From Xanthomonas axonopodis (lineage in GTDB: Bacteria > Pseudomonadota > Gammaproteobacteria > Xanthomonadales > Xanthomonadaceae): DNA of 35,808 bases. Below the pieces are notes generated by a model that saw nothing but the letters and a program-made list of their open reading frames with translations, did not search any database and was not told where the DNA came from. Location: the NCBI RefSeq assembly GCF_001304695.1, contig NZ_JFAQ01000074.1, positions 1-35,808 on the forward strand, written 5' to 3'. Position numbers and translations under genes: made by a program. Shown here in pieces: positions 10,193 through 27,700 of the stretch (position 1 is the stretch's first letter; each line of letters opens with the position of its first letter).

Positions 10193-10203
10193 AGTTATTC
10201 CAC

Positions 10204-10953: not shown

Positions 10954-11747
10954 CAGGCAGCACTCCGGTCGCGGCGCGGGGCGGCATCGAAGGCGATGGG
11001 GCCATCCGGCTGGCCATGCAGGAACTGCTGCACCAGCGGGTCGGTGCTGTCTTGCAGCTGCACAGGCGTGCCGGCGAACACGATGCCGCCATTGGCGATC
11101 ACCACCGCCTGGTCGCAGATCGGCAGCGTCTCGTGCACATGATGGCTGACGATGATGCTGGTCAGGCCCAGGCTGTCGTTGAGGCGCTGGATCAGGCTCA
11201 TGATCACGCCCGAGGCGATCGGGTCCAGCCCGGTCAGCGGCTCATCGTAGATCATCAGCGGCGGGTCCAGCGCCAGCGCACGTGCCAGTGCCACGCGCCG
11301 CGCCATGCCGCCGGACAACTCGCGCGGCCACGCATCGGCGGCGGCCAGCAGGCCGACTGCATGCAACTTCATCTGGACCAGGCGCTGAAGCACCGCCGCC
11401 GGCAAACGCGTGTGGGTGCGCAGCGGCAGCGCGACGTTTTCGGCCACGCTGAGGTCGGTGAGCAGGCCATTGCCCTGCAACAGCACACCGACGTTGCGCC
11501 GCATCTCCAGCAGCGCGCGGCTGCCGGTGGGAATCGCATTGCCGAACAACGTCACCGTGCCGGCGACCGGGCGCAGCTCGCCGGTCAGTGCGGCGAGCAT
11601 GATGGATTTGCCACTACCAGACGGACCGAGCACGGCCGTGATGCTGCCCTGCGGCACCGTCAGCGACACGTCGCGCAGGATCGTGCGCCCGCCGCGATCG
11701 ATGCGCACACCCGACAACTGCACCAGATTGGGTTCGGAAGACGCCAT
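10953..11747 (-). CDS. mlaF: MlaF ATPase subunit
   Basis: A 264-residue ABC ATPase: Walker A GPSGSGKS at 41-48, the Q-loop region LLQGNGLLTDLS, signature LSGGMARRVALARA from 144, Walker B LMIYDEP ending at 170, and H-loop IIVSHHV. The C-terminal tail ends in a DAAPRRDRSAA stretch; in the family the tail contacts MlaB. First gene of the operon; start ATG 11747 gives the normal N-terminus. Confidence 0.95.
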   Translation of the reverse strand: MASSEPNLVQLSGVRIDRGGRTILRDVSLTVPQGSITAVLGPSGSGKSIMLAALTGELRPVAGTVTLFGNAIPTGSRALLEMRRNVGVLLQGNGLLTDLSVAENVALPLRTHTRLPAAVLQRLVQMKLHAVGLLAAADAWPRELSGGMARRVALARALALDPPLMIYDEPLTGLDPIASGVIMSLIQRLNDSLGLTSIIVSHHVHETLPICDQAVVIANGGIVFAGTPVQLQDSTDPLVQQFLHGQPDGPIAFDAAPRRDRSAA

Positions 11748-11932
11748 CGCAACCTTTAACGAAAACACAACGTAGGATTGATCCGCTCGGCTGAACTTAA
11801 CCGAACTGGCGCGTGCAGTATTGTCGCATCGCTCACTTCGGTGTTTGCCCGGCGCAGTGGGCCTGTACATTTGCCAGCAGGTATTGGATTGGTTGCGGTC
11901 GCGATGCCGCCACGGATCCAGTCGCCCCCGGC

Positions 11933-12036
11933 GTTGCCGCAACATATCCGGCACAATGCCGGTCGCGCGCTTCGGCCTGCACGAAATCCTCTACATGATC
12001 GCAAGCGCACTGATCGCCGAGGCCGCCGGGCTGGAC
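11933..12036 (+). pseudogene. Relic of recC with a large internal deletion
   Basis: Bases 11933-11957 match the region just upstream of the intact recC start (21296-21320) at 23 of 25 positions. The next 80 bases, 11957-12036, match recC 22645-22724 at about 66 of 80 positions with no gap, and encode VARFGLHEILYMIASALIAE where RecC has IARFGLHEILDLLASAPIAE. So the recC leader is joined directly to codon about 438 of recC. Outside these borders I see no recC similarity. The relic is about 18% diverged from the resident recC, so it is not a recent copy. It lies in the same orientation 9.4 kb before recC and marks the left edge of the accessory segment. Confidence 0.8.
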
Positions 12037-12105
12037 GCCATCAGAAGTGGAATCTCCTATTCCTCGCGTGCACGAGAATTGAGATCAAGAAAAGTTGAAT
12101 CGTAG

Positions 12106-12142
12106 AGGCACTCAAGAACTAATTAAAGGCACTCAAGAACTA
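12106..12142. repeat. 16-bp direct repeat, 21-bp period
   Basis: AGGCACTCAAGAACTA occurs at 12106-12121 and again at 12127-12142, separated by AATTA. It lies just beyond the recC relic and before the end of the efflux operon, and may be a footprint of a past insertion. Confidence 0.85.
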
Positions 12143-12185
12143 TCCGCAGCGCAATGAGGGTCCGAATGGCGGATTGAGGGCTACC

Positions 12186-13496
12186 TCATACCTCGCGCAG
12201 CGCGGTGGTGATCGGCAGCCGTGCCGCGCGCAGGGCGGGAAACAGGCCGCCGACCAACCCGATTCCCAGCGCCCACTTCAGCCCGCTCCACAGCAGCTCC
12301 GGCGAGACCTTGAACTGGAACACCACCTGGCTGAAGTTGCTGCTCAGTGTGGACACGCTGTAGCCGTTGAACACCACCCAGGCGATCGCGCCACCCAGCA
12401 CGCCGCCGAGTAGCGCCAACAGCATGGTCTCCAGCATCACCGCCATCACCACCGGCGCACTGCGGAAGCCAAGCGCGCGCATCGTGGCAATCTCCCGTGC
12501 ACGCGTGGCCACTGCCGCGTACATGGTGTTGAGTGCGCCGAACACCGCACCGACCGCCATGATCGCGCCGATCACCGTGCCGAGGATGCCGATCAGCTTG
12601 CTCAGCCCGCCGCCCTGCTTGCCGTAGTAGCTGCGCGTGGTGTCGACGTCGAGCTTGAGCCGTGGGTCGGCGGCCATCGCGGCCTTGAACCGGTCGAAGC
12701 CGGCCTTGCCCTCGGTGCGCGCGCTGATCGACTGCCAGGCGCTGCGCTGGTAGGTGCTGGCCAGGGTTTGCGCATCGGTCCACAGCTCCGAATCGTGTGC
12801 ATCGCCGGAGGCGAACACGCCGACCACGGTCCAGGTCTGGTTGCCCAGGCTCAACGTCCTGCCGACATCCAGCCCGCGGAACTGGTTCTGCGCGCCCTTG
12901 CCGACCACGATCTCGCGCAGGCCGGTGCCGAAGCGCCGACCATCGACGATCTTGACCTTGTCATGCACGGCCCAGCCCTGCTCGCCGACGCCGCGGAACT
13001 GCGCGTTCACGTCGGTGCCGTCGGACTTGGAGACCAGGTTGACCACCTGCGACAGCTCCGGCGAGATCATCGCGCGACCCTGCGCGTCCTTGGCGATGCC
13101 GGGCAGCGCGCCGATCAGCGGCACCAGGTCGCGGGTGATCACAGAGTTGGTCTCCGCCTGCGAACCGCCACGCAGCACGATCGCCGTGGTGTCGTCGCCG
13201 GTGCTGTTGAGCGTGGCCTCAAAACCGCGTCCCATCGCCAACATCGCCACCAGCACGCCGACCACGCCGGCGATGCCGACCACGATCACCGAACTCGCGC
13301 CCCAGCGCTGCGGAAGGCTGGCGATGCCGATACGCGCGGCGGCCAGTGATAGCCGGCCGCTGCGGGTCAGCAGCAGCCACAGCGTCAGCGCCACAGCCGC
13401 CGCCAGCACGCCGATCCATGGCAGCGCGATCCATACGCCCAGGCCCACCGCCAGCAGCAGGATCGACAGCGCGTTGCCCAACCAATGCTTCTTCAT
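12186..13496 (-). CDS. FtsX/MacB-like ABC permease 2
   Basis: A 436-residue permease: an N-terminal pair of membrane helices (about residues 10-45), one helix before a large periplasmic domain (about 100-310), then three C-terminal helices (LIGILGTVIGAIMAVGAVFGALNTMYAAV, VVMAVMLETMLLALLGGVLGG, LKWALGIGLVGGLFPALRAARL). The order and the ending RAARLPITTALREV are typical of MacB/FtsX permeases, which move substrate by mechanotransmission rather than through a pore. It lies 12 bases after the first permease and closes the operon. Confidence 0.9.
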   Translation of the reverse strand: MKKHWLGNALSILLLAVGLGVWIALPWIGVLAAAVALTLWLLLTRSGRLSLAAARIGIASLPQRWGASSVIVVGIAGVVGVLVAMLAMGRGFEATLNSTGDDTTAIVLRGGSQAETNSVITRDLVPLIGALPGIAKDAQGRAMISPELSQVVNLVSKSDGTDVNAQFRGVGEQGWAVHDKVKIVDGRRFGTGLREIVVGKGAQNQFRGLDVGRTLSLGNQTWTVVGVFASGDAHDSELWTDAQTLASTYQRSAWQSISARTEGKAGFDRFKAAMAADPRLKLDVDTTRSYYGKQGGGLSKLIGILGTVIGAIMAVGAVFGALNTMYAAVATRAREIATMRALGFRSAPVVMAVMLETMLLALLGGVLGGAIAWVVFNGYSVSTLSSNFSQVVFQFKVSPELLWSGLKWALGIGLVGGLFPALRAARLPITTALREV

Positions 13497-13508
13497 GTCG
13501 ATCTCCTC

Positions 13509-14666
13509 TCAGCGCCCAGCCAGGGCATCGACGATCTTCAGACGCTTCGCGCGCAGCGCCGGCAGCACGCCGAACACCACGCCGATCACCACGATCAGTC
13601 CGGCACCGACCAGCCAGGTTTGCAGTGGCACGTTCGGAGGCAGCATGCCCCTCGCCTTGGACGCCAGCCCCGGCAGGATCAGCGCCGCAAGACCCAGTCC
13701 GATCGCACCACCGAGCCCGATCAGCAGCACCGATTCGATCATCACCAGGGTCAGCATCGTGCCGTCCTTGAAGCCAAGCGTCTTCAGCGTTGCCAGTTCC
13801 GGGATGCGCTCGCGTACCGCCTGGGCCATGGTGTTGCCGGTCAGCAGCAGCAGTGTGAAAAACACCGCGCCCATGATCGAGGTGACGATCATGCCGATGT
13901 CGGCGAACTGCTTGACGAAGGCCTGCTGGAACGCCGACTCGGTCTGGCTCTTGGTCTCGTGATCGGAGTTGGCCGAGATCGCATCGATCGCTTGCACCAC
14001 GCGCGAGGCATGGTCGGGGTTGTCCAGCGTCACCGTGTACCAACTGACCCGGTTCTTGATGTAGTCGTTGGATTCGTCGAAGTACTTCCAGTTCATGATC
14101 AGCTGGCGTTCCTCGTTGGCGGCCAGCGTGCGGTCCTTGGAGCGAAAGATGCCGACCAGTTGCAGCGGCCAAGCGTTGCTGCCGCCGCGGGGGAAGAGCG
14201 TCGCCTGCAGTGGGATGGTGTCGTCGAGTTTCCAGCCGAACTCTTTGGCCAGCGATTCGCCGACGATCGCGCCGGTGCGCGTAGCATGGAACGCCTTCAG
14301 CTGTTCCGGAGGAATCTGCAGTTCACGGTAAACGTCGAAGTAGTTCGGCGCCACCGAGGAGTTGGCGAAGAAGTTCTTCGGATCCTTATAGATGCCCCCG
14401 AACCACATCGCCGAAGTCACATCGCGTACCCCGGCCACCTCGCGGATCTGCGTGCCCAGGCGGATCGGCAGCGACTGGGTGATCGACAGGCGCGAGGTCA
14501 CCACCAGGCGGTTGACGCCTTCGATGCTGCCGCCGGAATTGAACGCCACGCGCACCGAATCGAGCATGCCGAACAGCAGGAATGCAGCGACCACCGACAG
14601 CAGGGTCAGCATCGTCCGCGTCTTGCTGCGGAACAACTGCGCCCATACGAGCGAGAAGTATTTCAT
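13509..14666 (-). CDS. FtsX/MacB-like ABC permease 1
   Basis: A 385-residue permease with an N-terminal helix (SKTRTMLTLLSVVAAFLLFG, about 14-35), a periplasmic domain (about 45-265), and three C-terminal helices with ERIPELATLKTLGFKDGTML, the cytoplasmic segment typical of FtsX proteins (compare REIATMRALGF in permease 2). The ending LPALRAKRLKIVDALAGR is also typical. Having two separate FtsX-type permeases rather than two copies of one MacB fits the DevBCA/YknWXYZ-like type of exporter. Gap of 12 bases to the ATPase gene. Confidence 0.9.
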   Translation of the reverse strand: MKYFSLVWAQLFRSKTRTMLTLLSVVAAFLLFGMLDSVRVAFNSGGSIEGVNRLVVTSRLSITQSLPIRLGTQIREVAGVRDVTSAMWFGGIYKDPKNFFANSSVAPNYFDVYRELQIPPEQLKAFHATRTGAIVGESLAKEFGWKLDDTIPLQATLFPRGGSNAWPLQLVGIFRSKDRTLAANEERQLIMNWKYFDESNDYIKNRVSWYTVTLDNPDHASRVVQAIDAISANSDHETKSQTESAFQQAFVKQFADIGMIVTSIMGAVFFTLLLLTGNTMAQAVRERIPELATLKTLGFKDGTMLTLVMIESVLLIGLGGAIGLGLAALILPGLASKARGMLPPNVPLQTWLVGAGLIVVIGVVFGVLPALRAKRLKIVDALAGR

Positions 14667-14678
14667 CGTCGTCTCCGG

Positions 14679-15368
14679 TCAGTAGGCGACCAACGCGTCG
14701 GCCAGCTCGCCCTTGTCCAGATGCACGGTATGCGAGGCGTACTCGGCAGCCTTGGGATCGTGGGTGACCATGATGATGGTCTTGCCGTGCTCGCGGTTGA
14801 GCTGCTGCAGCAGCTTGAGGATCTCCTCGGCGTTGTGGCGGTCGAGGTCGCCGGTGGGCTCGTCGCAGATCAGGAACGTGGGGTCGGAGACGATGGCCCG
14901 CGCGATCGCCACGCGCTGCTGCTGGCCGCCGGACAATTCGCTGGGCTTGTGGCTGCGGCGCTCATCGAGGCCGACCAGCGTCAGCGCGATTTCGGCATGG
15001 CGCCTGCGCTGCGCCGCGCCGAGGTTGGTCAGCAGCAATGGCAGCTCGACGTTCTTCTGCGCATTGAGCATCGGCATCAGATTGTAGAACTGGAACACGA
15101 AGCCGACGTGATGGCTGCGCCAGGTGGCCAGCTGACCGCCGCTCATGCGGTCGATGCGCTCGCCTTCGATCTCGATCTCGCCGCCGGACGGCGTGTCGAG
15201 TCCACCGATCAGGTTCAGCAGTGTAGTCTTGCCCGAACCGGATGGGCCCATCAGCGCGACGAAGTCGCCGCGCTCGATCTCCAGATCGATGCCATGCAGT
15301 ACCTGCACCTTCTCGGGGCCGCGCTGGTAGGTCTTGGTGACGTTGCGGAGGGTAACGAGGGCGGTCAT
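14679..15368 (-). CDS. MacB/LolD-type ABC ATPase
   Basis: A 229-residue ATPase: Walker A GPSGSGKTT at 41-49, LSGGQQQRVAIARA signature, Walker B FLICDEPTGDLD, H-loop MVTHDP. It lacks a fused permease. With the two FtsX-like permeases and the adaptor it would form a tripartite efflux system in the inner membrane that joins a TolC-like outer-membrane channel encoded elsewhere. AGAGGA lies nine bases before ATG 15368. Confidence 0.95.
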   Translation of the reverse strand: MTALVTLRNVTKTYQRGPEKVQVLHGIDLEIERGDFVALMGPSGSGKTTLLNLIGGLDTPSGGEIEIEGERIDRMSGGQLATWRSHHVGFVFQFYNLMPMLNAQKNVELPLLLTNLGAAQRRRHAEIALTLVGLDERRSHKPSELSGGQQQRVAIARAIVSDPTFLICDEPTGDLDRHNAEEILKLLQQLNREHGKTIIMVTHDPKAAEYASHTVHLDKGELADALVAY

Positions 15369-15714
15369 TGCGTGGGATCCTCTGCGTTTCGATGCGGGGT
15401 GAACGAGATCAATGATGGGTGGGCTGGTATTGCGATGCGATCGGTGTCGCTATGTCTCCATGTCCTGCATGTCGCCACGCGTGCGGCGATCAACGTCGGC
15501 GACTCCACTGTCTTTGCAGGTTCAAGTGCAGCAGGTGTGGTTGTTGCTGTCACTTTGGATTTCCCCGGCTCCGGTACGAAGCGGCATTCCCCGGTCACCG
15601 CTGCAGACGGGGACTCGGTAGGGCGCTCGACAGCAACAACAGCAATGCCGCTCACGACCTAGAACCAATCCACGCAACATTCAAACGAAGACAACACTTG
15701 CGCGCGCGGCGCAC
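15369..15714. other. Long gap inside the efflux operon
   Basis: The 346 bases between adaptor and ATPase are unusual for an operon whose other gaps are 12 bases. A minus-strand frame from GTG 15655 to 15365 (96 residues, start SGIAVVAVERP) ends in an ATGA overlap with the ATPase start, which is suggestive; but it has no clear ribosome-binding site and its composition (Thr/Ala/Pro/Ser-rich, no motif) is not convincing. A lost small gene or an untranslated spacer are equally possible. Confidence 0.35.
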
Positions 15715-16968
15715 TCACTCCTGTGCGTCGCTGGACAATGTCACCGCATCGCCATCCTTCAACGCCTGCGGTGGCTCGACGACCACCGTGTCGCCTACGG
15801 ATACGCCCGATACCACCTGCTTGTCGCTGCCAATGTCGATGCCGGGCTTCACCTCGCGCAGCGCGACGTGGTTGTCGTTGCCGAGGACGAAGACGCGGCT
15901 GGTGCCGTCACGCTGCAGCAGTGACGCAGCCGGCACCCGCACGCCCTTCTGCTTGTTCTGCTGCTGCGCCGTGGCCTTTTCCAAGAAGCTCACCCGCACG
16001 CCCATGTCCGGCACGATGCGTGCGTCCTTGACGTTAAGCGCCACGCGCACCTTGACCGTGGCCTTGCCGCGGTCGGCAGCCGGGATGATCGCGATCACCT
16101 CGGCCGGGATGCGCCAGTCTGGATAGGCGTCGAGGATCACTTCGGCCGGCATCTTCGGCTGCACGCGGCCGATGTAGGCCTCGCCGACCTCCACTTCCAC
16201 TTCCAGCGAATCCATGTCGACGATGGTGCCGATGCCGGTGCGGGTGAAACCGCCGGTGGCCAGCGGCGAGACGATCTCGCCCGGCTGCGCGGCCTTGGCA
16301 GTGACCACACCGGCGAACGGCGCGCGCACCACGGTGAAGTCGACATGGATGTCTGACAGCGACAACTGGTGCGTGGCGACCGCGATATTGCGCTTGACCA
16401 CCTGCAGCTGCGCGCGCAGCGCATCGCGCTGCGACACCGCCTGATCGTACTGCGAACGCGATACCAACTGCTCGCCGACCAGCGAGTGTAGCCGCGTCGC
16501 ATCGGCTTCGGCCACGACCAGCTGCGCCTGCACGTTCTGCACCTGACTGCGCGCCGCCGCGAGCTGCGCGGCACCGACCTCGCGCTGCGCATTGGTCTCG
16601 ATCGGATCGAGCGTGGCCATCACCTGACCTGCCTCCACGCGCATGCCTTCCTCGATCATCACCTGCAGCACCTTGCCGGTGACCTGCGCCGACACCGTAG
16701 CCATGCGTCGCGCCACCACGTAGCCGCTGGCATCAAGGACCGACGACGACGCGTTGCCGGCGCTGATCGCCACCACCGGTGCGCCGCGCACCTGCAGCGG
16801 CTTCGCCCGGCCCAGCCACCACCACGCGGCGGCGGCGAGCAGCAGCAGCACGATAACGACGACGAGCGTGGCGATGGCGATCCCCCCTGCGCGCCCCGAG
16901 GGCGATTCGCGGGACGGGGCCTTGCGGTCGATGCGCAGTTCCTTCAGCAGATCGGCAGAGTTGTTCAT
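15715..16968 (-). CDS. Periplasmic adaptor subunit of a tripartite ABC efflux system (HlyD/MacA type)
   Basis: A 417-residue membrane-fusion protein: cytoplasmic N-terminus, one membrane helix (about residues 30-53), a biotinyl-lipoyl-like domain split by an alpha-hairpin (AQVTGKVLQVMIEEGMRVEAGQ, then AAQLAAARSQVQNVQAQLVV and QRDALRAQLQVVKRNI, then VRAPFAGVVTAKAAQPGEIV), and beta-barrel and membrane-proximal domains to the end. It would link the FtsX-like permeases to an outer-membrane channel. First gene of the four-gene operon; the promoter must lie in 16969-17100, back to back with the peptide-cluster promoter, which hints at shared or opposed control. Confidence 0.95.
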   Translation of the reverse strand: MNNSADLLKELRIDRKAPSRESPSGRAGGIAIATLVVVIVLLLLAAAAWWWLGRAKPLQVRGAPVVAISAGNASSSVLDASGYVVARRMATVSAQVTGKVLQVMIEEGMRVEAGQVMATLDPIETNAQREVGAAQLAAARSQVQNVQAQLVVAEADATRLHSLVGEQLVSRSQYDQAVSQRDALRAQLQVVKRNIAVATHQLSLSDIHVDFTVVRAPFAGVVTAKAAQPGEIVSPLATGGFTRTGIGTIVDMDSLEVEVEVGEAYIGRVQPKMPAEVILDAYPDWRIPAEVIAIIPAADRGKATVKVRVALNVKDARIVPDMGVRVSFLEKATAQQQNKQKGVRVPAASLLQRDGTSRVFVLGNDNHVALREVKPGIDIGSDKQVVSGVSVGDTVVVEPPQALKDGDAVTLSSDAQE

Positions 16969-17106
16969 TGAGGCCTGTTAACGTGATCGTTTCACGCTCT
17001 AGCAAGTCATTAAGTTGGACGCGAATCCTGGGACGCGACTCTACAGCATCATGATGCGTATCGTAGGGGCGGGGAGGGAGTGCAACGGGGCTAACATGGT
17101 ACGTGC

Positions 17107-17136
17107 TTGCTTTTAAAGGCGATCTATGGTTAGAAT
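17107..17136 (+). promoter_or_regulatory. Sigma-70-type promoter of the cupin/peptide cluster
   Basis: TTGCTT (17107-17112) and TAGAAT (17131-17136) are separated by 18 bases, 26 bases before ATG 17163. It matches the consensus at 4 of 6 and 5 of 6. The DNA becomes visibly AT-richer from here on. Confidence 0.6.
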
Positions 17137-17162
17137 GCAATGATATGCACAGGGAGCGTGAT

Positions 17163-17991
17163 ATGAAAATGCCTTCAGAACTTGTCGAGTTCGCCAAGGA
17201 AGCTGACGAGCAAATGGCTCGTGATTATCACGAGGGCTTCTTTCGCATGAGCGAGAAGCTGAGGTCACTGGTATGTGGCACGGATGTATTGTCACGGGTG
17301 GCTGCTGATGAGTTGCGGAATATAGCCGGAAATCCCGGCTACGAATCCCCTCGGTGGGAACCTGATTATATTGTTATGGCTAACGGTCCGAAGTGGCAAT
17401 TGAGAGTTGGGTTTTACTCTCGCTCTTCGGAGTTCGTCTACACAATGCCTCAGCACATGGTTGTCGTTGTGGCGGGGCAGCAAGCACTTACGGCTGATCA
17501 CTATACCTTGCCGCAAGGGATTTGATATCGGGACATTCGACCCAGCTTTGCGGCTTCAGCCAGCCGTGCGGCGAGTTCATGCGCCGGGCGATCTTATTAC
17601 AATAGATAGTCGACATGATCTGTTTGATGTCATGGTAGACGCGAAAGTATTGGTTGTGAAATTTTTTTCGACCGCACACCACCCATTGCAATGGGCATTT
17701 CATCGCGATACGGGGCAGGCTTTACAGGCAATCGCAGCCGACCCTGTTGATTCAGAGCTTGTATCGATGTCGCGAACACTCGGTGCTATGATGAATCGGG
17801 CTGCTGTTCCAGCATTGTCGCAGCTTTGCGATCATCACCAATATTTTGTTCGCTGGGCTGCAATGCAGGCGCTTGGATATGTAGCGCCTGAATTGCTGGT
17901 GCCAAGATTAAAGGTTGCAGCAGAGGATCCGCATCCGCATGTACGTGCGGCCGCACATAAAGCTTTGAGTCGAATTTTGCCACAGGGATGA
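17163..17991 (+). pseudogene. Cupin-like protein with C-terminal HEAT repeats, frameshifted
   Basis: ATG 17163 has AGGGAG six bases upstream. The first frame ends at a TGA (17523-17525) after TADHYTLPQG; dropping one A at about 17520 continues it as FDIGTFDPALRL and on to 17991, giving about 275 residues. Part one (residues 1-120) is helical then beta-rich; the middle (GDLITIDSRHDLFDVMVDAKVLVVKFF) has a cupin-like strand pattern; the end (AVPALSQLCDHHQYFVRWAA, then LKVAAEDPHPHVRAAAHKAL) is two HEAT-type helix pairs. It resembles the next gene in layout but I see no HxH metal motif, so it may be a partner rather than an enzyme. I recognise no named family. Base composition is well below the flanks. 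The frameshift may be real or a read error. Confidence 0.6.
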
Positions 17992-17994
17992 GTC

Positions 17995-18900
17995 ATGCCA
18001 ATTACGATTGATCCAGTTTCCACAGAAAAGTTGCGAATAGACGAATTCATCGAACATGTGGAGCAACATGTGGATCTTGGTTGTGCGGAAGGTTTGGCGG
18101 AGTCAGCGCCTCATTTCCGTAAGTTAGCGAACGATGCGGACCTGATTCCATCTCATTTCAACGGCGCCATTAAGAAATTTTTAGATCATAGTCCGCTTGC
18201 GGCATATACGCCGCAGTCAGTGTTTTTGGGGGCGGGGCGCGGATTTTTCTTGCGGGCAAATATTTGGACGCCGCTGAAATTGTCTGAGAAATTTCGTTCC
18301 CAGGAGGAGCGGGTTTTTAGCTATCGAAATACGCACGATCATAATTTCCAGTTTATGACGGTCGGCTATCACGGCCCGGGATACGAAACGAATCTTTATC
18401 AGTATGATCCTTCTCGGGTGCGCGGATATATCGGCGAAGTTGTTGAACTAGAGTCGCTGGGGCGCACAATGCTGCCGGTAGGTCGTGTCATGGTCTATCG
18501 CGAGAAAATGGATGTGCATACTCAGTTTCCGCCGGAGCAATTGTCAGTATCGCTTAATCTAATGGTGACGAAGAAACGTGAGTGCGAACCGGATCAGTAT
18601 TTTTTTGATCCATCCGACGGTCGCATCGTTGAAATGCCACAAATAGCATTGGTGCACAAGCGTGCATCTATTGTGGTGCTGGCCGGGCAGCTGGCAAACA
18701 GCGACACTGCTGATGTCATTGAGTCGCTAATTATTGATGCGCCTTGTCGGCGTGTACGTGAGGCTGCATTGGTTGCTGCTTCTACTCTCAGAGAATTGTC
18801 TGCAGGCGAGCGTTTGCGAATGATTGAGCTAGGCGCTGATGATCGCGATGAAGTTGTTCGCTTTCGTGCGCGCTCGATGGTGGCTGAAAGGACGGTATGA
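17995..18900 (+). CDS. Cupin-like putative metal-dependent oxygenase with HEAT-type tail
   Basis: A 301-residue protein whose ATG follows the previous stop by three bases (site AGGGATGA). The central region reads RNTHDHNFQFMTVGYHGPGY and later MDVHTQF: His114 and His116 with Glu131 and His175 match the HxH...E...H metal set of cupins, so an Fe(II)- or other metal-dependent oxygenase is likely. Residues about 235-297 (VIESLIIDAPCRRVREAALV, RMIELGADDRDEVVRFRARS) look like HEAT-type helix pairs. It is intact. Its place between a cupin/HEAT relative and a tiny leader-type peptide suggests it modifies that peptide. Fold call is by motif pattern; substrate and reaction are inference. Confidence 0.65.
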   Translation: MPITIDPVSTEKLRIDEFIEHVEQHVDLGCAEGLAESAPHFRKLANDADLIPSHFNGAIKKFLDHSPLAAYTPQSVFLGAGRGFFLRANIWTPLKLSEKFRSQEERVFSYRNTHDHNFQFMTVGYHGPGYETNLYQYDPSRVRGYIGEVVELESLGRTMLPVGRVMVYREKMDVHTQFPPEQLSVSLNLMVTKKRECEPDQYFFDPSDGRIVEMPQIALVHKRASIVVLAGQLANSDTADVIESLIIDAPCRRVREAALVAASTLRELSAGERLRMIELGADDRDEVVRFRARSMVAERTV

Positions 18901-18966
18901 AGTTCGTGTAGTAACGTCGTGGCAGATGGCACTCGTCTGTTAAGGCGTCCATTGAGGGTGCAATTC

Positions 18967-18973
18967 AAGGAGG
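18967..18973 (+). promoter_or_regulatory. Near-perfect ribosome-binding site of the 39-residue peptide
   Basis: AAGGAGG, the strongest Shine-Dalgarno in this segment, four bases before ATG 18978. It supports translation of an otherwise easily missed gene. Confidence 0.8.
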
Positions 18974-18977
18974 TCTC

Positions 18978-19097
18978 ATGCAAGCCATTGTTCTGGATGA
19001 TCTGGAAGTGAACGTTGCACCGACGGGGGCGTCGGATGCAGTGGGCGGTCCGTTGTGTGTTGGTGTCTTTGTTGTACTGATGCTGGTTCCAATGTAA
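18978..19097 (+). CDS. Putative 39-residue precursor peptide with a double-glycine-type leader
   Basis: ATG 18978 to TAA 19095-19097. The N-terminal part is acidic and polar (MQAIVLDDLEVNVAPTGASD), then AVGG, then a very hydrophobic 15-residue end, PLCVGVFVVLMLVPM, with one Cys. This layout, leader plus GG plus core, is that of bacteriocin and RiPP precursors exported by ABC transporters. It has the best ribosome-binding site around, is followed at once by a hairpin, and sits between a putative oxygenase and ABC transporter genes. Alternatives: a small membrane toxin or a one-helix accessory subunit, since the end could also span part of a membrane. The length, site and context make it a real gene; its precursor role is inference. 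Confidence 0.65.
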   Translation: MQAIVLDDLEVNVAPTGASDAVGGPLCVGVFVVLMLVPM

Positions 19098-19110
19098 TCA
19101 AGTTGCGCTG

Positions 19111-19135
19111 GGCGGGCTCCATGAGCCCGCCTTTA
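19111..19135 (+). terminator. Hairpin between the peptide gene and the transporter genes
   Basis: A perfect 9-bp stem, GGCGGGCTC (19111-19119) with GAGCCCGCC (19123-19131), loop CAT, followed by TTTAT. It starts 13 bases after the peptide stop and just before the next start codon. A leaky terminator here would give more precursor than transporter mRNA, as is usual in peptide clusters. Confidence 0.75.
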
Positions 19136-19149
19136 TGAGAGGCATTTTA

Positions 19150-19672
19150 ATGACTTCGTTCTTGACGCCGCTGGAGCGCAGGCTGGCTACAGTGCTTCCT
19201 TGTACCGCGGCAGGAGTTGTTGTTTGGTATTCGCGATGGTGGCGCGTACGGGAATATCGAATTGAAGCAATCGCCAATGTGGCGATGCTGCTAGGGATCA
19301 TACTGGCGCTTGTTTGGGTCTCGTCGTTGCCGATGCATACAGTGCAGCCTCATGTTCTGTCCGCTGGCGGAAAGCTTGGGCTGGTGGGAGGGATGTTGCT
19401 CAGTGGTGGTGTGTCAGGATGGCGATCGTCGCGCAGGACTTCGTTTTACCTTCATGGGCATTGGCTGGCGTGGTGCATGCAGCATCGACACTACTGTAAC
19501 GAGCGAAAATTACGTTGTCTGTGGGGCGGATTACGTGGTGCTGTGAGCATGGCTTGTATCAGCGTCGTCGCCTCCCATTGGTTTGTCATATCTAGATTAG
19601 CTGTGGCCATAGCGGTTGCCGTATTTTTTATTGGATTCGTATTTGCCTTCTTTGCAAATAGAGGGTGTCTGA
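19150..19672 (+). pseudogene. Membrane component 1 of the peptide-cluster ABC system, damaged
   Basis: ATG 19150 has GAGAGG upstream. The frame starts MTSFLTPLERRLATVLPC, has hydrophobic stretches (NVAMLLGIILALVWV; GLVGGMLLSGG) and then a non-hydrophobic Arg/His/Cys-rich run that looks out of frame; another frame there reads RMAIVAQDFVLPSWALAGVV, which looks like a membrane protein. The original frame becomes hydrophobic again (SRLAVAIAVAVFFIGFVFAF). So at least two shifts occur near 19415 and 19500. No stop in this frame precedes the next gene's start at 19673. I infer an ABC-2-like permease half; the exact 3' end is uncertain. Confidence 0.5.
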
Positions 19673-20288
19673 ATGTTTCGATTTCTACGTCTGCCGCAAG
19701 CAGTCGTGGATTCGTACGTATCATGCCGGCAGCCCCCATGCTGCAGATGCCGCGCCCGAAAACGGTTGGATTTTTCTTTGTCGTCGCAATACTTGCCATC
19801 TCTCTATCGTTGCGGTATGGGCGGTACGTATTGAGCATCCCGGTATGCTGGGTATGGCAGTGGCGATATCGGCTATCGCATTCATCTTTTTTCAGACCTT
19901 GCTGGTCGCGGGGGCCACGGAACTGCACAGGTTGCTGGCTTGGACAGGCGTGGCGCCCTGGCGTGCGGTATCACGTCTGCTGTGGTTTCCTGTAGCGATT
20001 GCTGCAGGCATGGCGGCTCCGATTGCAATTGCTGCGGTTGTCCTACATCAACCGATTTGGATACTGGTTGTTTTAGTGGGGTTAGTGATCGCGTGTTATG
20101 TTGGAGTGATATGGGTGGTGAGCGACCTTGTAGGAATGGGAGGCGGCCGTCGTTCAATTTTTCGTATGGTAAATACGATATTTCCACTCGTAGCTCTAGT
20201 CGCTGGCCCGATCGCCGTGTTGATATTGCCGCTCCATTTGGGCTGGTTGATTCGAAGAGGGCATCATGCCTGGATGGAGAAAGTGTGA
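19673..20288 (+). pseudogene. Membrane component 2 of the peptide-cluster ABC system, frameshifted
   Basis: ATG 19673 follows a GAGGG site and opens MFRFLRLPQAVVDSYV. It needs a shift near 19725 to continue as IMPAAPMLQMPRPKTVGFFF and another near 19820 to continue as WAVRIEHPGMLGMAV. The rest is open: several membrane helices (MAVAISAIAFIFFQTLLVAG, FPVAIAAGMAAPIAIAAVVL, ILVVLVGLVIACYVGVIW, IFPLVALVAGPIAVLILP) to a TGA at 20286-20288. This is the pattern of an ABC-2-type permease of about 205 residues. Its stop overlaps the GTG of the ATPase gene by GTGA, so both were one operon. Either inactivated or misread at two places. Confidence 0.55.
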
Positions 20289-20992
20289 TATCAATTAATA
20301 TAAACGCGGTGTGTGCGGGCTATGCTGTTCACCAAGTTTTGTTTGAATTTACTGCGACAATAGCTGCTGGTGAAGTCGTAGTTATGATCGGCGCCAATGC
20401 TTCGGGAAAATCCACGTTGGTGCGGGTGCTTTCCGGATTGCATGAGGTAAGCGACGGTACCGTGGTTTATACGGATCTGGAGCTTGGAAGCCGTCCACCC
20501 GTCGGGCTCGCGGTGGCACCGAACATGCTGCCGGAGCGCTTGACTGGATTTCATGCGCTTGATCTAGTAGCGGCTGCATTGCGCACGAATGCCATCAAGG
20601 TGGCGATCGATTATGCGACTGTGGTGGATTTATATCCTTACATGCATGCTCCCATCGCATCATACTCGCTTGGGACTCGGCAGAAACTAGCGATCTCATT
20701 GGCGATGGTTGGCACGCCGCGGTTGCTGCTTTTAGACGAATCACTTAACGGGTTGGACTTGCCCAGTGTCGGCCGTACGCTGAAGTTCTTGCGTGAACTG
20801 ACGCAGGTGAGTGGTCAAAGCGTGTTGTTAGTCACGCACAACATCGACCTTGCTCAATCGTATGCGCAGCGAGTCTGGATGCTTGAGAACGGGCGTCTAG
20901 CAAGGGAGTGGAAGCAAGATGAGCTGAGTCGGATGCAGTGCGAAGGTCAGCTTATTTCACGTCAGGTATTGGAGCACTTGAGTGGTGCATAG
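20285..20992 (+). CDS. ABC transporter ATPase of the peptide cluster
   Basis: A 235-residue ATPase from GTG 20285, the only sensible start since no ATG lies near and this GTG overlaps the previous stop. It has Walker A GANASGKST (36-44), a variant signature YSLGTRQKLA (near 127) in place of LSGGQ, Walker B RLLLLDESLNGLD and H-loop LLVTHNI. The SLGTRQ/SxGM-like signature is common in ABC-2 exporters such as those for bacteriocin immunity or export. It is intact, unlike the membrane genes before it. Codon use is AT-richer than the flanks. Confidence 0.85.
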   Translation: MISININAVCAGYAVHQVLFEFTATIAAGEVVVMIGANASGKSTLVRVLSGLHEVSDGTVVYTDLELGSRPPVGLAVAPNMLPERLTGFHALDLVAAALRTNAIKVAIDYATVVDLYPYMHAPIASYSLGTRQKLAISLAMVGTPRLLLLDESLNGLDLPSVGRTLKFLRELTQVSGQSVLLVTHNIDLAQSYAQRVWMLENGRLAREWKQDELSRMQCEGQLISRQVLEHLSGA

Positions 20993-21329
20993 GCGGACTC
21001 GGGGTTTGATCATTCGCAACGCAGTGCCGACATTGCCATTGCATCGCCTAGGATTTCTGTCATCGAAGCCACCAGCATTGAAATTCCAAGAAACCGCTGT
21101 TCACCGTAGCGGAAATCGGCATACACCGCACGCCTGATGGTGCTTACAAACCCTGCTCTGTAAAGGGCCGTGTGGTTTTCAGGGGCGACGCATTACACCA
21201 TCACCCAGCCCGCGCCTTGCGTGCCACTGATGACTTGACGCCGCAGGTGTAACCATCATCGGCGTGGGCGGCTCACCGATGCGGTAGAACGTGCTGTTGC
21301 CGCAACGCATCCGGCACAATAGCGGGAAT
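20993..21329. other. Gap between the peptide cluster and recC
   Basis: About 337 bases. A minus-strand open frame, 21010-21192, without a clear start, reads STIRRAVYADFRYGEQRF and MLVASMTEILGDAMAM, which looks protein-like and could be a gene remnant; I do not recognise it. The last 25-base stretch, 21296-21320, is the recC leader that is repeated at 11933-11957. Confidence 0.4.
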
Positions 21330-24300
21330 ATGCCTGTTACGCCCCCACCCGATTTCCGGCTGTATCCCTCCAACGCGCTGGATACCCTGGCCGCCCTGCT
21401 CGCCGAAGCGCTGCGCCGGCCGATGCCCGGGCAACCGTTGCTGCAGCCGGAGGTGGTGCTGATTCCGCAGGTGGCGATGCGGCGCTGGTTGCAGTCCACG
21501 CTTGCGGCCGAGCACGGTGTTGCGGCGAATCTGGAATTTCTCACGCCCGGCGAATTCGTCGCGCGTGCACTGGAGCGCAACCTCGGTGCGGCCGACGACG
21601 ACCTGGACATGGCCACCACGCAGTGGCGGTTGTACGCGGCCCTGCAGGCGGACTTGGGCCGCGATGCGGCGTTGGCGCCGCTGGCCGGATACCTGGCCGA
21701 TGGCGATGCACTCAAGCCATGGGCGCTGGCCGGCGAGTTGGGCAGCGTGTTCGAAAAATACCAGGCATGGCGCCGCGACTGGCTGCTGCGCTGGGAAGCG
21801 GGCGCCGACCCGGATGACCCGCAGGCCCGGTTGTGGCGCAGCATCGCCACCGGCCGGCAATACCGCGCCCGGCGCATCGGCCAGTATCTGGATCGCCATG
21901 CGCGTGCCGATGGTCCGTTGCCGCAAGGTTTGCCGCCGCGCGTGTTCGCGTTCGCCATCTTGAACATCTCGCCGGACGTCTTGCGCGTGCTGGCCACGCA
22001 GGCGCGCGTGGGCACGCTGCACTTCTATCTGCCCACACCGACGCAAGGGTACTGGGGCGACCTGCAGACCTTGTGGCAGTGTCGGCGCGAAGATGGCGCC
22101 GTGCAATTGTTCGCCGAGCAGGTGAAGGAAAACCCCTTGCTGCAGGCCTGGGGCGCAGCCGGACGCGATTTCATGGCGCTGGTGGGCGACTACGAAGTGG
22201 TGCACCCGCTGGCGGAAATTGCCGCCTACGCTGACCCGCTGGATTCCGGCCGCCGCACGCTGGCCGATGGCGGGCTGGGCGACAGCCTGTTGCGGCGCAT
22301 GCAGAGCGATCTGTTCCATCGCCGCGCGCCTGCAGCGGGCGCGGTATTGCCGGCGGTGAATCTGCACGACCCCAGCCTGCAGGTGCACGCCTGCCACACG
22401 CGGCTGCGCGAGTTGCAGGTGTTGCACGACCAACTGCGTGCGCTGCTCGACGACACACGCTTCGATCCGCCCCTGCAGCCGCGCGAGATCGCGGTGCTGT
22501 CGCCCAATATCGACCCGTACGTGCCGTATCTGGATGCGGTGTTCGGTAGTCATGGCAACGACGACGCGCTGCCCTACGCGCTGGCCGATGCCAGCCCGTT
22601 GGCGAGCGAGCCACTGGCCGAAGTGTTCCTCACCTTGCTCGGTTTGCCGATCGCGCGTTTCGGGCTGCATGAAATCCTCGACCTGCTGGCCAGCGCGCCG
22701 ATCGCCGAAGCGGCCGGCCTGGACGAAGCCGGGTTGGAACGCCTGCGCAATTGGCTGCACGCGGCCGGCGCGCGCTGGGGCCTGGATGCGGCGCACCGGC
22801 GGCAGCACCAGGCACCGGGCGACGATGCCTACACCTGGCGTTTCGCGCTGGACCGACTGCTGCTCGGCCATGCCAGCGGCGCCGACGAGGACATCGACGG
22901 GGTGGCGCCGTGGCCGCAGCTGGAAGGCAGCGCGCTGGCCGCACTCGACACCTTGTTGCGGCTGTTGCGCGTGCTCGAACGGCATCAAGCTACGCTGGCC
23001 GAGGCGATGACGCCGGTCGAGTGGCGCGAGCGTTTGCTGGGTCTGCTCGAAGCCTTGATTCCGGCCACGCCGACGGCGCCGCGCGCGCAACGCGCGTTGG
23101 ATCGCTTGCGCGCGCTGATCGATCAATTCGCCCGCGATGCGGTGCGTGCCGAGTACGCCGGCACCGTGCCGGCCGAGGTGGTGCGTGCGCATTTCGCGGC
23201 GGTGCTGGGCGAATCGGATACGCGCGCGCCGCTGCTCACCGGCGGCATCAGTTTCGGGCGCATGGTGCCGATGCGCTTGCTGCCGTTCCGCGTGATCTGC
23301 CTGCTCGGCATGAACGATGGCGATTTCCCGCGGCGCGACCCGGCTGCCGGGCTCAATCGCCTCACCGCGGAACTGGGTACCGAACGTCGCCGGCACGGCG
23401 ACCGCTCCACGCGCGAGGACGACCGCTTCTTGTTCCTGCAGTTGTTCGCCTCCGCGCAGGAAGTGTTTTACCTCAGCTATCTCGGCGCCGATGCGCGCGA
23501 TGGCAGCGTGCGCGAGCCGTCGGTGCTGGTCAGCGAATTGCTGGCAAGCGCCGCGCAGTACCACATCGCCAGCAACGCGCTCGACATGCTGGTGGTGCGG
23601 CACCCGTTGCAGCCCTTCGCCGCCGCCGCGTTCGGTGCGCCGGGCGACGACGGCGCCGACCCGCGCCGTTTCAGTTATCGCCGGCAATGGCGCCCGGCGG
23701 TGGACAGCCTGGTCGGCCAGCGCCAGCCGCTCGCGCCGTGGGTGGCCGGCGCCTTGCCGGCCGACGACATCGGGTTGCCGGCCAGCGTGTCCATCGACGA
23801 ACTGCGCCGGCTGTTTGCCGACCCGGCCGGACAGTTCTTGCGCCATCGCCTGGGGATGCGCTTGCCCGATCCGGCCGGCGAAGACAGCGACCTGGAACCG
23901 TTGCTCGCCCCCACGCGCGGGCTGGATCAATACGGTTTGCAGCAGCAGGTCTTCGAAGCGGCATTGGCCGGCGACACCGAGCACCTGTACGCGCGTCTGC
24001 GTGCCCGCGCGCTGTTGCCATCCGGCCCGCTGGGGCGCCGCCAGCTCGACGAGCGCGTGGTGCAATTGCGCCCGTATGCCGAGGCATTCCGACAATGGCG
24101 GGGCGAGGCGTCGGCCGAATCGCGCCGGCTGCAGGTGCAGATCGGCGAGATCGAACTGCACGGCCGTGTACCGGGCTGGTATGCAAGCGGCGTCGGGCGC
24201 GTGCAGGTTGGCGCGCTCAGCGGCCGCAGCGCCATTCGTCATGGCCTGGAATGGCTGCTGCTGCGCGCCGCCGGCGAGCACGCGCCGTACGTGCGCTTCT

Positions 24301-24734
24301 TCGAACACGACGATGGCCTGGGCCCGCATCCCATCGATGCGCAGCCGCTGTCGCAAACGCAGGCGCACACCGCATTGGCCGAGCTACTGCAGCTGTATCG
24401 CCACGGCTTGCAGACGCCGCTGGCGTTCGCGCCGTACAGCAGTTGGAAATACCACCAGGCTGCGCGCGGCGATGACTTGGACAAGGCCATCAAGGACGCG
24501 GCCGGGCAGTGGCAATCGGGCTTTGGCTGGAGCGAATCGCGCAGCCCGGAACTGCGCCTGGTCACGCGCGGCCGCGACCCGTTTGCCGACGCGCAACGCT
24601 TTGCCGAGTTCGCCACCACCAGCCATCGTGTGTATGCATTGCTCGAACAGGGAAACACCGGCGCGCCGCTCGAGACCGAGCGCGTGATCGACAGCTGGCA
24701 GCATTGGCGCGGCGCGCAGGAGGAGGCCGAATGA
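21330..24734 (+). CDS. recC: RecC subunit of exodeoxyribonuclease V
   Basis: A 1134-residue protein starting MPVTPPPDFRLYPSNALDTL. RecC is a non-catalytic helicase-like protein that splits the DNA strands and reads the Chi site in the RecBCD complex. Typical blocks are RRWLQSTLAAEHGVAANLEF near the start, the inactive helicase-like core (SFGRMVPMRLLPFRVICLLG, then DRFLFLQLFASAQEVFYLSY) and the C-terminal part ending in SWQHWRGAQEEAE. I chose ATG 21330 because upstream residues in frame come from the leader repeat. The stop overlaps the recB start as ATGA. A diverged, deleted relic of the gene lies at 11933-12036. Confidence 0.95.
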   Translation: MPVTPPPDFRLYPSNALDTLAALLAEALRRPMPGQPLLQPEVVLIPQVAMRRWLQSTLAAEHGVAANLEFLTPGEFVARALERNLGAADDDLDMATTQWRLYAALQADLGRDAALAPLAGYLADGDALKPWALAGELGSVFEKYQAWRRDWLLRWEAGADPDDPQARLWRSIATGRQYRARRIGQYLDRHARADGPLPQGLPPRVFAFAILNISPDVLRVLATQARVGTLHFYLPTPTQGYWGDLQTLWQCRREDGAVQLFAEQVKENPLLQAWGAAGRDFMALVGDYEVVHPLAEIAAYADPLDSGRRTLADGGLGDSLLRRMQSDLFHRRAPAAGAVLPAVNLHDPSLQVHACHTRLRELQVLHDQLRALLDDTRFDPPLQPREIAVLSPNIDPYVPYLDAVFGSHGNDDALPYALADASPLASEPLAEVFLTLLGLPIARFGLHEILDLLASAPIAEAAGLDEAGLERLRNWLHAAGARWGLDAAHRRQHQAPGDDAYTWRFALDRLLLGHASGADEDIDGVAPWPQLEGSALAALDTLLRLLRVLERHQATLAEAMTPVEWRERLLGLLEALIPATPTAPRAQRALDRLRALIDQFARDAVRAEYAGTVPAEVVRAHFAAVLGESDTRAPLLTGGISFGRMVPMRLLPFRVICLLGMNDGDFPRRDPAAGLNRLTAELGTERRRHGDRSTREDDRFLFLQLFASAQEVFYLSYLGADARDGSVREPSVLVSELLASAAQYHIASNALDMLVVRHPLQPFAAAAFGAPGDDGADPRRFSYRRQWRPAVDSLVGQRQPLAPWVAGALPADDIGLPASVSIDELRRLFADPAGQFLRHRLGMRLPDPAGEDSDLEPLLAPTRGLDQYGLQQQVFEAALAGDTEHLYARLRARALLPSGPLGRRQLDERVVQLRPYAEAFRQWRGEASAESRRLQVQIGEIELHGRVPGWYASGVGRVQVGALSGRSAIRHGLEWLLLRAAGEHAPYVRFFEHDDGLGPHPIDAQPLSQTQAHTALAELLQLYRHGLQTPLAFAPYSSWKYHQAARGDDLDKAIKDAAGQWQSGFGWSESRSPELRLVTRGRDPFADAQRFAEFATTSHRVYALLEQGNTGAPLETERVIDSWQHWRGAQEEAE

Positions 24735-27700
24735 GCGTCAGCCCCGTCACCGACCCATATCTGCAGTTGCCGCTGCACGGCGTGCGCCTGATCGAGGCCA
24801 GCGCCGGCACCGGCAAGACCTTTACGCTGGCCACCTTGTTCACCCGGCTGGTGGTCGAGCGCGGCTTGCGCATCGGCCAGATCCTGGCGGTGACCTTCAC
24901 CGAAGCCGCCACCCAGGAACTGCGCCGCCGCATCCGTGAACGCTTGGCGCTGGCCGCAACCTTGGTGCCGGATGGCTCACCAACTGGTGGAGAACAGGAC
25001 AACGCCGCGAGCGCATCATCCGTTGCGCAGGACGCGCCCGACGCGCTGCTCACGCGCGCGATCCTCCTCACGCATCTGGACGCTGGCACCGAAACGCCCG
25101 CTGCCCTGCGCCGCCGCCTGCAGCAGGCGGTGGAAGAAATCGACCTGGCCGCCGTGTTCACCATCCACGGCTTCTGCGCGCGCGTGCTACGCGAACACGC
25201 GCTGGAAAGCGGCCAAGCCTTCGCCGCACCGGAATTGCTGGCCAACGACCGCGAATTGCTGGGGGAAGTGGCCGCCGATCTGTGGCGGCAGCGCGCCGCC
25301 GATGCGGTGATGGCCGAAGATCTCATCGCGCTGTGGCCGGGCGGCCCCGAGGCCTTGGCCAGCGATCTGCGCGCCTTGGTGAGGTATTCGCAGTTGCTGC
25401 CTTCACCCACACCGCCAGCGCCCGACCCGACGCCGATCCGCCACGCGGCCGCGCAAGCCCTGGTCGCCGCGCTGCACGCGCACGGCGACACTGCGTATGA
25501 CGCTATCGCTTCGGCATTCGATAACAAGGTCTTCGATGGCCGCCGCGCGCGCCGCGCCAGTTTCGACAAGGCCTTCGAACAGCTATGGAACGGCAGCGCC
25601 GATGCTCACTGGGTCCTGGACGAAAAGGGACACCTGGACAAACTGCTGCCGGCACGCATGCGCGAGTTCTGCAAAGACGGCGCGCATGATCGCGTACCGT
25701 GTTCGCCATTGTTCGACGCACTTCAACTCTGGCAACAGGCCGACCTGCAGGTGCAGCAGTGGCAGCAGCAGCGTCGCATTCGCTTACTGCACGCGCTGCG
25801 CGAGGACGCCATCGCACGGCTCGCGCTGCTCAAGCGGCAACGCCGCGTGCAGACCTACGACGACCTGGTCGATGGGGTGGTGCATGCATTGCAAGGCGCG
25901 CAGGCCGACGCGTTGGTCAAGCGCCTGCGCACGCAATACGCCATCGCGCTGGTGGACGAATTCCAGGACACCGACGATCGCCAGTGGTCGATCGTTTCCA
26001 ACGTATTCGGCGAAGGGCCACTCGCGCAGGCCGCCGGACTGGAACCGGCGCTGTTTCTGATCGGCGACCCCAAGCAGGCCATCTACGGCTTCCGTGGCGG
26101 CGATGTGCGCACCTATCTGGCCGCGGCAGTCACCGCCGAACTGGCGCCGCCGCTGAGCCACAACTTCCGCTCGCGCCCCGGCGTGCTGGCGGCCATCGAC
26201 GCGCTCTACGCGCAGGCCGGCTACGCCGATGCCTTCCTCACCGACGGCATCGCCTTCCACCCGGTGCGGGCCGGCACCAAGCGCGTGGATGAAGACCTGC
26301 AACGCGATGGCGTCACTGCGCCAGCGTTGACGCTGTGGCGCGCGCCGGAACCGCCGCCGCCTGCGAAAGGCAAACCCAAACCCTGGAGCGCAGGCCGCGC
26401 GCGCGAGCTGGTCACCGCCGCCTGCGTCGCCGCAATCCGCGGCTGGCTGGCCGGTGGCCGCGACGGCGCGGCCACGGTGTGCGGCCGCCCGGTGCAGGCC
26501 GGCGATATCGCCGTGCTGGTGCGCAGCCACGGCGAGGCCACGCGTATCCAGCAGGCGCTCGGCGCGGTGGGCATCCCGGCGGTGGCCGCCGGCAAGCAGA
26601 GCCTGTTCGCCACGGAAGAGGCGCTGGAGTTGCTCGCCTTGCTGCAGGCCTTGCTCGACCCGGGCGACGACAGCCGCCTGCGCGCCGCCTTGGCCACGGT
26701 GCTGATCGGCGAAGACGCCGCCGCCATCGCCGCACTTGACCGCGATGGCGAGCGTCACCGCCGCTGGCAGCAACAGGCGCTGGACTGGCGCGAACGCTGG
26801 CAGCGCGGCGGCCCGCTCGCCCTGATCGGCGAGCTCGGCGCCACGCACGGGCAACGCCTGCTTGCCCTGGTCGATGGCGAACGCCGCCTCACCAACTATC
26901 TGCAACTGGCCGAACTGCTGCAGGAAGCCGACGCCCGCGCACTCGGCCCGCATGGCCTGGTCGACTGGCTGTCGCGGCGCATCGCCAATGCCGACGACAA
27001 CGACGAAGCCCAGCAACTGCGGCTGGAATCGGACGCGCGCCGCGTGCAGATTGTCACCCTGCACAAGAGCAAGGGCCTGGAATATCCGCTGGTGTTCCTG
27101 CCGTATGTCGGCATCGGCCGCAGCGACAAGGGCGCCGGCCGCCATTGCGTGGTGCATGCGCCGGACGTGGGCCGTCAGCTGCACTGGAAGACAGAGCGCG
27201 ACGACCCGAGCTGGAGCGCCGCCGAAGCTGCCTGGAAGCAGGAACAACGCGCCGAGGACGCGCGCCTGCTGTATGTCGGTCTGACCCGCGCCGAGCACGC
27301 GCTGTGGATCGCCAGCGGCCCGTTCCATCAGCACGAACGCATCGCATTGTCGGCCATGCTGCGTGCGCTCGATGCGCTGCAGGGCGCGGCGGGCGAGGGC
27401 ACCGTAGTGGTGGACACCAGCACGCCGCCGGCCCACCTGCCGCGGCTGCCGGCTCCGAGCGAGGCGCAGGTGCCTCCCGCGCGCAGCGCGCAACGGCACA
27501 TCGCCCCGGAATGGTGGGTGTATAGCTTCACCCAACTGGCCAACGCCGATGCCGGCGCGGTCACCGACGCGATGGCCAGCGCCACCGTCGTCGGCAGCGG
27601 CGGCAGCGATGAACCGTCCGGCAGCGAGGCGGTCGCCGCGGCTGTTGCCAGCGACGCCGAACCGTTCGATCCGCGCTTTGCCGGCAACCGCTTCGGCGTG

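Follow-up and report, generated by a model that had tools for sequence, protein, structure and literature searches.

What is specified by the run of genes between 17 and 21 kb of contig NZ_JFAQ01000074.1 from the plant-associated bacterium Xanthomonas axonopodis, where two HEAT-repeat proteins, a 39-residue peptide and an ABC transporter ATPase are encoded together? A sequence-only reading had proposed a peptide natural-product cluster in which a metal-binding cupin tailors the peptide, and we found that this idea holds in outline. The core would be a three-gene unit consisting of a small precursor peptide and two proteins, protein 1 (C1) and protein 2 (C2). We consider it fairly probable that the unit encodes a pathway similar to those of ribosomally synthesized and post-translationally modified peptides (RiPPs), in which C2 oxidises the tail of the peptide and C1 serves as a non-catalytic partner. 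The window is the whole contig of 35,808 nucleotides (nt), from genome G000; L-numbers denote loci and G-numbers genomes, and the relative X. bromi is genome G008 (locus L013). The open reading frames (ORFs) of the unit are as follows.

17163 to 17525, + strand: first piece of C1 (predicted thiol-dioxygenase fold with HEAT tail, catalytic His absent); the frame is broken in the window, and the whole 283-residue copy and its fold model come from X. bromi
17407 to 17991, + strand: second piece of C1, in another frame, with HEAT repeats (HEAT_2, E 2.5e-11 in Pfam)
17995 to 18900, + strand: C2, 301 residues, with a predicted thiol-dioxygenase fold, conserved H114-D115-H116 and H175, and C-terminal HEAT-like helices; proposed oxygenase
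18978 to 19097, + strand: 39-residue precursor-like peptide MQAIVLDDLEVNVAPTGASDAVGGPLCVGVFVVLMLVPM, recognised by the family profile and by its relatives

A peptide gene recurs with the C1–C2 pair

Scanning contigs with a profile of the C2 alignment gave 62 loci, mostly from Sphingomonadales and relatives of Nevskia, with some from Lysobacter, Tahibacter, Acetobacter and others. A C1 homologue was present at all 62, a co-occurrence that is partly by construction because ORFs upstream of C2 served as seeds for the C1 profile. The two genes were no more than 30 nt apart in 59 of the 62 loci, with a median of a 14-nt overlap. Pairing was also seen in further genomes, at 35 of 36 independent loci (43 fetched minus 7 duplicates, defined by 88% identity over 500 bases), the remaining one being an over-long ORF call. 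Within the genus, 5 of 35 genomes carry C2 (two as distant matches only); the figures are 20 of 397 for the order, 15 of 398 for genomes from across the phylum and 105 of 298 for genomes sampled from the family of G317, which we infer to be Sphingomonadaceae.

Small ORFs of one family lie just upstream of C1 or, in the Xanthomonas type, downstream of C2. A profile built without Xanthomonas ranked the window ORF at 18978–19097 first of 415 ORFs (E 2.5e-4; the next was at 0.21). The profile, whose peptides were picked by eye, scored a family ORF above every other ORF on either strand in 58 of the 62 loci; this count comprises 45 of 45 loci scored with their own and similar peptides left out, and 13 of 17 loci without a listed peptide, for which nothing was left out. 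Three of the four missed loci are on short or cut contigs (L012, L037 and L058) and the fourth is from an acidobacterium (L073). The weaker cases in this ranking were L055, at only E 0.014, and L019, in which the match lies about 2.5 kb beyond C2. At loci outside the profile, the peptide was found at E 3.3e-5 or better in 33 of the 36 non-duplicates. At a threshold of 14 bits, 60 family ORFs lay near the pair (training peptides included) versus 1 among 7,073 far ORFs, namely the member in L019. Sixteen further Lysobacterales loci yielded six peptides at E <0.01 (among them L131, on the other strand, and L134, which repeats L055) and four more at 0.015–0.048; the other six had none at E <0.05. 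The sequence-only reading had held that it would fail if the cupin/HEAT genes occurred mostly without a small peptide gene; they occur mostly with one, less often in Lysobacterales.

Comparison of 17 peptide pairs gave a pooled pN/pS of 0.31, with single pairs reaching a dN/dS of 0.61. This codon constraint indicates that the family is translated and that the encoded precursor expected of a RiPP pathway is present. As is also expected of such pathways, dedicated gene products are linked to the precursor, in that C1 and C2 adjoin the peptide. The window peptide had no match in Pfam or NCBIfam, and six other family peptides had none in NCBIfam.

Several loci carry pairs of other kinds. Distant C1–C2 pairs are found in other genomes of the genus at L010 (7617–9472) and L011 (9088–10895, reverse strand), near ORFs that resemble transposases. 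A Vibrio plasmid (L003, 7294–8850) carries a short C1–C2-like pair with a 59-residue ORF, between genes annotated as recombinase or transposase and as restriction-modification. The peptide profile gave nothing convincing on L010, L011 and L117–L119. Beside C1 in L118 (6765–6926; genome G257) there is a different small ORF, ending in MANNSLDIEDLTLDEADVVSAGALENPTLIEAAGVFGVIVVAVVIFL, which has no Pfam match and looks like another leader type.

C1 and C2 have a predicted thiol-dioxygenase fold

The sequence-only reading had called both proteins cupin/HEAT and had credited the second with a full HxH/E/H metal set. The HEAT part stands, firmly for C1 (see above) and weakly for C2, for which the Pfam match (E 0.0043) falls below the curated cut-off. 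The cupin part gives way to a better description, as the predicted models of both C1 (the X. bromi copy) and C2 show a thiol-dioxygenase fold followed by a HEAT tail. The fold match covers the N-terminal two thirds, up to model residue 195 in C1 and 219 in C2; C2 was compared with the PDB by one structural aligner only, and C1 by that aligner and by Foldseek. Structural alignments of C2 with solved thiol-dioxygenase folds have 7–20% identity. Searches by sequence alone linked C2 to no solved structure in a meaningful way and C1 significantly only to HEAT-type repeat proteins, and Pfam on the C1 and C2 sets gave little beyond HEAT repeats.

Among C2 relatives, H114, D115 and H116 are present in 55 of 55 and H175 in 54 of 55. 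An HDH motif with a distal His is the three-His iron site of thiol dioxygenases. In view of its predicted fold and conserved residues, we prefer to call the proposed 'metal cupin' a HEAT-tailed protein of thiol-dioxygenase fold. The HxH and distal His of the earlier metal set are thus retained. The Glu that a classical cupin site has 3–5 residues after the HxH is not: there was no Glu majority at positions 119–121, position 120 is F in 54 of 55, and a classical cupin metal site was rejected. A Glu further on, Glu148, is kept in 50 of 55 relatives, as a matter of sequence conservation only. C1 and C2 are paralogues by alignment, and the HDH of C2 lies opposite a gap in C1. The C1 alignment contains no invariant or nearly invariant His, and hence no three-His iron site.

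Peptide tails differ by clade and follow the C2 tree

The peptides are 38–58 residues long. Their best-kept positions, a Leu (42 of 47) and a Gly (45 of 47), are in the N-terminal half, the consensus of which is approximately I-D-I-x-[DE]-[IL]-P-[DE]-L-[DE]-T-x-V-[AG]-x-x-G-[SA]; the tails differ by clade. A VGG..C-like type, in which the Cys is kept, is found in Xanthomonas, Lysobacter, Alteromonas, Sphingosinicella and their kin, and includes the window peptide, where the AVGG and hydrophobic end described earlier are indeed present. A second type, with Asp and then hydrophobic residues and often a Tyr near the end, is found in Erythrobacter, Sphingomonas and kin, a YRLPE-like type in the Nevskia group and a DISLMDVVIAI-like type in Sphingobium. 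GG is present only in VGG-type peptides, and none of the scanned window proteins matched peptidase C39.

Tail types, which were assigned by eye, follow the C2 tree, a quick tree in which long branches meet: five changes are needed without six unlabelled rows, and eight with these rows as a fifth group, compared with 28.4 in shuffles. Although the window peptide has a VGG..C tail, the C2 beside it clusters with the Nevskia type (SH-aLRT 97). Two peptides in tandem are present in L024, L055, L002 and L127. Peptides with long Gly/Val-rich tails lie upstream of C1 in L129, which has two, and in L130.

The window copy is broken and has intact relatives

In the window, frame breaks split both C1 and the membrane gene downstream of the peptide in two, and for this reason the window copy is probably inactive or misassembled; the breaks may be either real or assembly errors. 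The nearest relative at the locus, X. bromi LMG947 (NZ_FLTX01000023.1), has 94.5% identity over window positions 7581–24974. In this strain C1 (283 residues) and the membrane gene (383 residues) are intact and the peptide is identical, without a single difference in its DNA. In X. populi (L009/L012) C1 is broken but C2 is whole, and the contig stops soon after C2.

A more distant relative, L132, comes from a different family and genus of the same order and has the gene order of the window within a low-GC island. Its peptide is identical to the window peptide at 31 of 39 residues, with 8 amino-acid versus 22 synonymous codon changes. Identity is 56% for C2, 50% for the ABC protein, 46% for C1 and about 30% for the membrane gene. 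We also observed that the membrane gene beside this orthologous peptide (L132, 8190–9349) is split, like that of the window, between two overlapping ORFs.

The unit lies in an inserted segment with transporter genes

The genes from 17163 to 20992 are all on the + strand and separated by short gaps, and GC content is about 50–54% over 17.0–21.0 kb versus about 62–74% outside, both as the sequence-only reading had described. It had also noted the hairpin and the ABC ATPase, which we likewise found, and two membrane genes, which proved to be one gene split over two frames. Two separate membrane genes were accordingly rejected on the X. bromi copy, yet L132 also shows two ORFs. Downstream of the peptide the features are:

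19110 to 19132, + strand: GC-rich hairpin after the peptide and before the membrane gene, from RNA folding; possible attenuator
19150 to 19995, + strand: membrane protein, first piece, frame-broken (single 383-residue gene in X. bromi)
19665 to 20288, + strand: membrane protein, second piece, in another frame (same single gene in X. bromi)
20285 to 20992, + strand: ABC transporter ATPase, 235 residues, GTG start (ABC_tran, 7.1e-16, in Pfam)

The hairpin folds at –22.4 kcal/mol over 51 nt (z –2.45) and is absent from the output of a terminator scan that found 9 terminators with 5.7 expected. A promoter scan of the window was uninformative (6 found versus 4.7 expected).

Comparison with G016, a relative without the pair, showed that window matches end at 11829 and resume from 21306, at recC, with about 8.3 kb of other cargo between them; three similar ORFs of 178–192 residues in this cargo resemble phage tail-collar proteins. 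The inserted segment therefore exceeds the extent first described and takes in a membrane-fusion/ABC operon at 12186–16968:

11829 to 21306, no strand assigned: segment missing next to recC in G016, which has other cargo instead
15715 to 16968, – strand: HlyD-type membrane fusion protein, inside the inserted segment, with a second copy in the genome (genus comparison, domain scan)
14679 to 15368, – strand: ABC ATPase, in the same operon as the membrane fusion protein (domain scan)
13509 to 14666, – strand: FtsX/MacB-type permease (domain scan)
12186 to 13496, – strand: second FtsX/MacB-type permease (domain scan)

The membrane-fusion/ABC operon of the segment is a second copy in this genome. 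The window membrane-fusion protein is 96% identical to its counterpart at the corresponding position in G008. Other copies, located elsewhere, have 70% identity in G008 and 74% in G000, the latter split in two pieces. A strong match (E <1e-160) exists in 33 of the 35 genus genomes, mostly at about 70% and away from recC, and the sole strong copy in X. populi adjoins C1–C2. Gene content next to recC is variable, as seen in the window (11829–21306) and in L122 (10200–18506).

Beyond Xanthomonas, a membrane-fusion protein, MacB-type ABC genes and a second ABC gene surround the peptides, C1 and C2 in Lysobacter L024, Tahibacter L028 and Alteromonas L002. An ABC/MFP/MacB homologue lies within about 7 kb in 9 of the 16 further Lysobacterales loci, a raw count without a background rate. 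Among 53 loci with 4 kb flanks, a motif test found an ABC-type ORF within about 4 kb in only 5 (two of them sphingomonadal), although this test misses some real ATPases, the window-type ATPase included. Because so few loci have an ABC-type ORF nearby, the exporter looks accessory and the peptide–C1–C2 unit looks like the core. Of the layout first proposed, precursor with enzyme and exporter, the peptide and pair are borne out and the ABC exporter only partly. Across loci L014–L071, a winged-helix regulator cluster is found in 19, a HAMP-GGDEF-EAL cluster in 10 of Nevskia type and a sigma-factor cluster in 6, with a single representative of each cluster scanned.

Possible function of the unit

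In the pathway that we favour, the N-terminal half of the peptide would act as a recognition leader. C1, which has no metal ligands, may be a non-catalytic partner of C2, binding either the leader or the enzyme; it is regarded as a partner of C2 because of their paralogy, constant pairing and overlapping genes. C2 would bind iron through the HDH motif and the distal His and use O2 to oxidise the peptide at its C-terminal tail, which is often hydrophobic. That the peptide is what C2 tailors is suggested by their linkage, their co-divergence and the kept metal site. The Cys of the window-type tail AVGGPLCVGVFVVLMLVPM would be the first candidate site. However, Cys is absent from 26 of the 49 listed peptides, so simple Cys oxidation was rejected as the general reaction, and another target would be required in the Cys-free peptides. 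In Xanthomonas and some other gammaproteobacteria, the membrane-fusion and ABC proteins may export the product or protect from it.

Several observations weigh against this pathway. The lack of Cys in 26 of the 49 peptides is odd for a thiol-dioxygenase fold, and the window copy is itself probably defective, as described above. No peptide could be recognised beside some pairs (L086, L087, L088, L010, L011 and six of the 16 Lysobacterales loci); the profile found only one of two Alteromonas peptides, at E 0.027; and it can score chance ORFs, such as a membrane-protein ORF in L123 at E 0.0028. None of the scanned proteins matched a known RiPP enzyme, in agreement with the sequence-only reading, which had seen none of the usual ones. 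By the motif test, 48 of the 53 loci have no ABC gene within about 4 kb, so secretion of a product is not a general feature, and a role in sensing is conceivable for copies that have few exporters and share their loci with regulators.

One alternative is that the peptide is an unmodified membrane-active peptide, either a class II bacteriocin or an internal toxin, and that C1–C2 protect the maker or regulate the peptide. Consistent with this, 30 of 49 peptides have a 15-residue stretch with a mean hydropathy of 1.6 or more, those in L129 and L130 are Gly/Val-rich, and ABC genes are present in the window type. By contrast, the best-kept positions are in the N-terminal half and not in the tail, C2 retains its three-His site, and the seven lowest-ranked peptides, of Nevskia type, reach a hydropathy of only 0.67–1.09. 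We regard this explanation as unlikely.

PCO and ADO act on an N-terminal Cys as an O2 signal, and C2 shares their fold. The unit could thus be an oxygen or redox sensor in which C2 oxidises the peptide or some other target as an O2 signal, the peptide being a relay and not a natural product. The wide presence of C2 in one family (105 of 298 genomes), mostly without exporters nearby, and the regulators in many loci (the 19, 10 and 6 above) fit such a role. However, the neighbours vary between clades and may be there by chance, the exporter-rich, tandem-peptide clusters of gammaproteobacteria are better explained by a product, and in Xanthomonas the insertion is at a variable site. A sensor seems improbable, about to the same degree as a membrane-active peptide.

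The peptide might instead be a non-substrate subunit or activator of a C1–C2 enzyme that acts on a small molecule. Tight linkage and co-divergence would be expected equally in that case, and many of the closest solved folds, judging by their structure titles, act on small thiols. We give this little credence, as tail types differ strongly by clade while the N-terminal motif is kept, and peptide copies occur in tandem. A chance ORF without function, in favour of which stand the two broken genes of the window copy, can be dismissed on profile ranking, codon constraint, independent recurrence, the L132 orthologue and the near and far ORF counts.

Relation to known systems and significance

Like thiol dioxygenases (cysteine, mercaptosuccinate and 3-mercaptopropionate dioxygenases, ADO and PCO), C1 and C2 have the predicted N-terminal fold, and C2 has the HDH and distal His. 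They differ in the added HEAT tail, the ligand-less paired copy and the linked peptide gene, with many of the peptides lacking Cys. The unit resembles RiPP and bacteriocin clusters in its small precursor-like gene with a conserved N-terminal motif, adjacent enzyme-like genes, tandem precursors and, in some lineages, exporters. Unlike in those clusters, C1, C2 and the scanned peptides match no known RiPP enzyme families, and the unit is known here from sequence and models. We found no paper on such a peptide and C1–C2 system in the open-licence PMC literature, as searched by title and the start of the abstract. A parallel is PbsQ, described as a cupin-like hydroxylase and accessory RiPP enzyme, related to a JmjC-domain protein, that acts beside an MNIO, an arginase and a B12-rSAM (PMC12257519). 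PbsQ is a cupin-type protein acting in a RiPP pathway, as C2 would be; here, by contrast, nothing enzyme-like is seen apart from the three-His thiol-dioxygenase-fold pair. On present comparisons, the unit looks like a new variation on a RiPP-like cluster, and the pair itself appears not to be among described RiPP enzymes. We advance more tentatively, as a possibility somewhat short of even, a new class of ribosomal peptide pathway, in which the sole enzyme has a thiol-dioxygenase fold and a ligand-less twin, and the reaction would be an O2-dependent change of Cys-free tails and not thiol oxidation.

If the proposed pathway is correct, it would add to peptide natural-product chemistry an enzyme family that library-based mining would miss, because Pfam gives C1 and C2 little beyond HEAT repeats and the scanned peptides have no match. 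The unit is also common, given the frequency of C2 in the sampled genomes of what is probably Sphingomonadaceae. It raises the questions of how a thiol-dioxygenase active site would act on Cys-free peptides and why it would need a catalytically empty twin.

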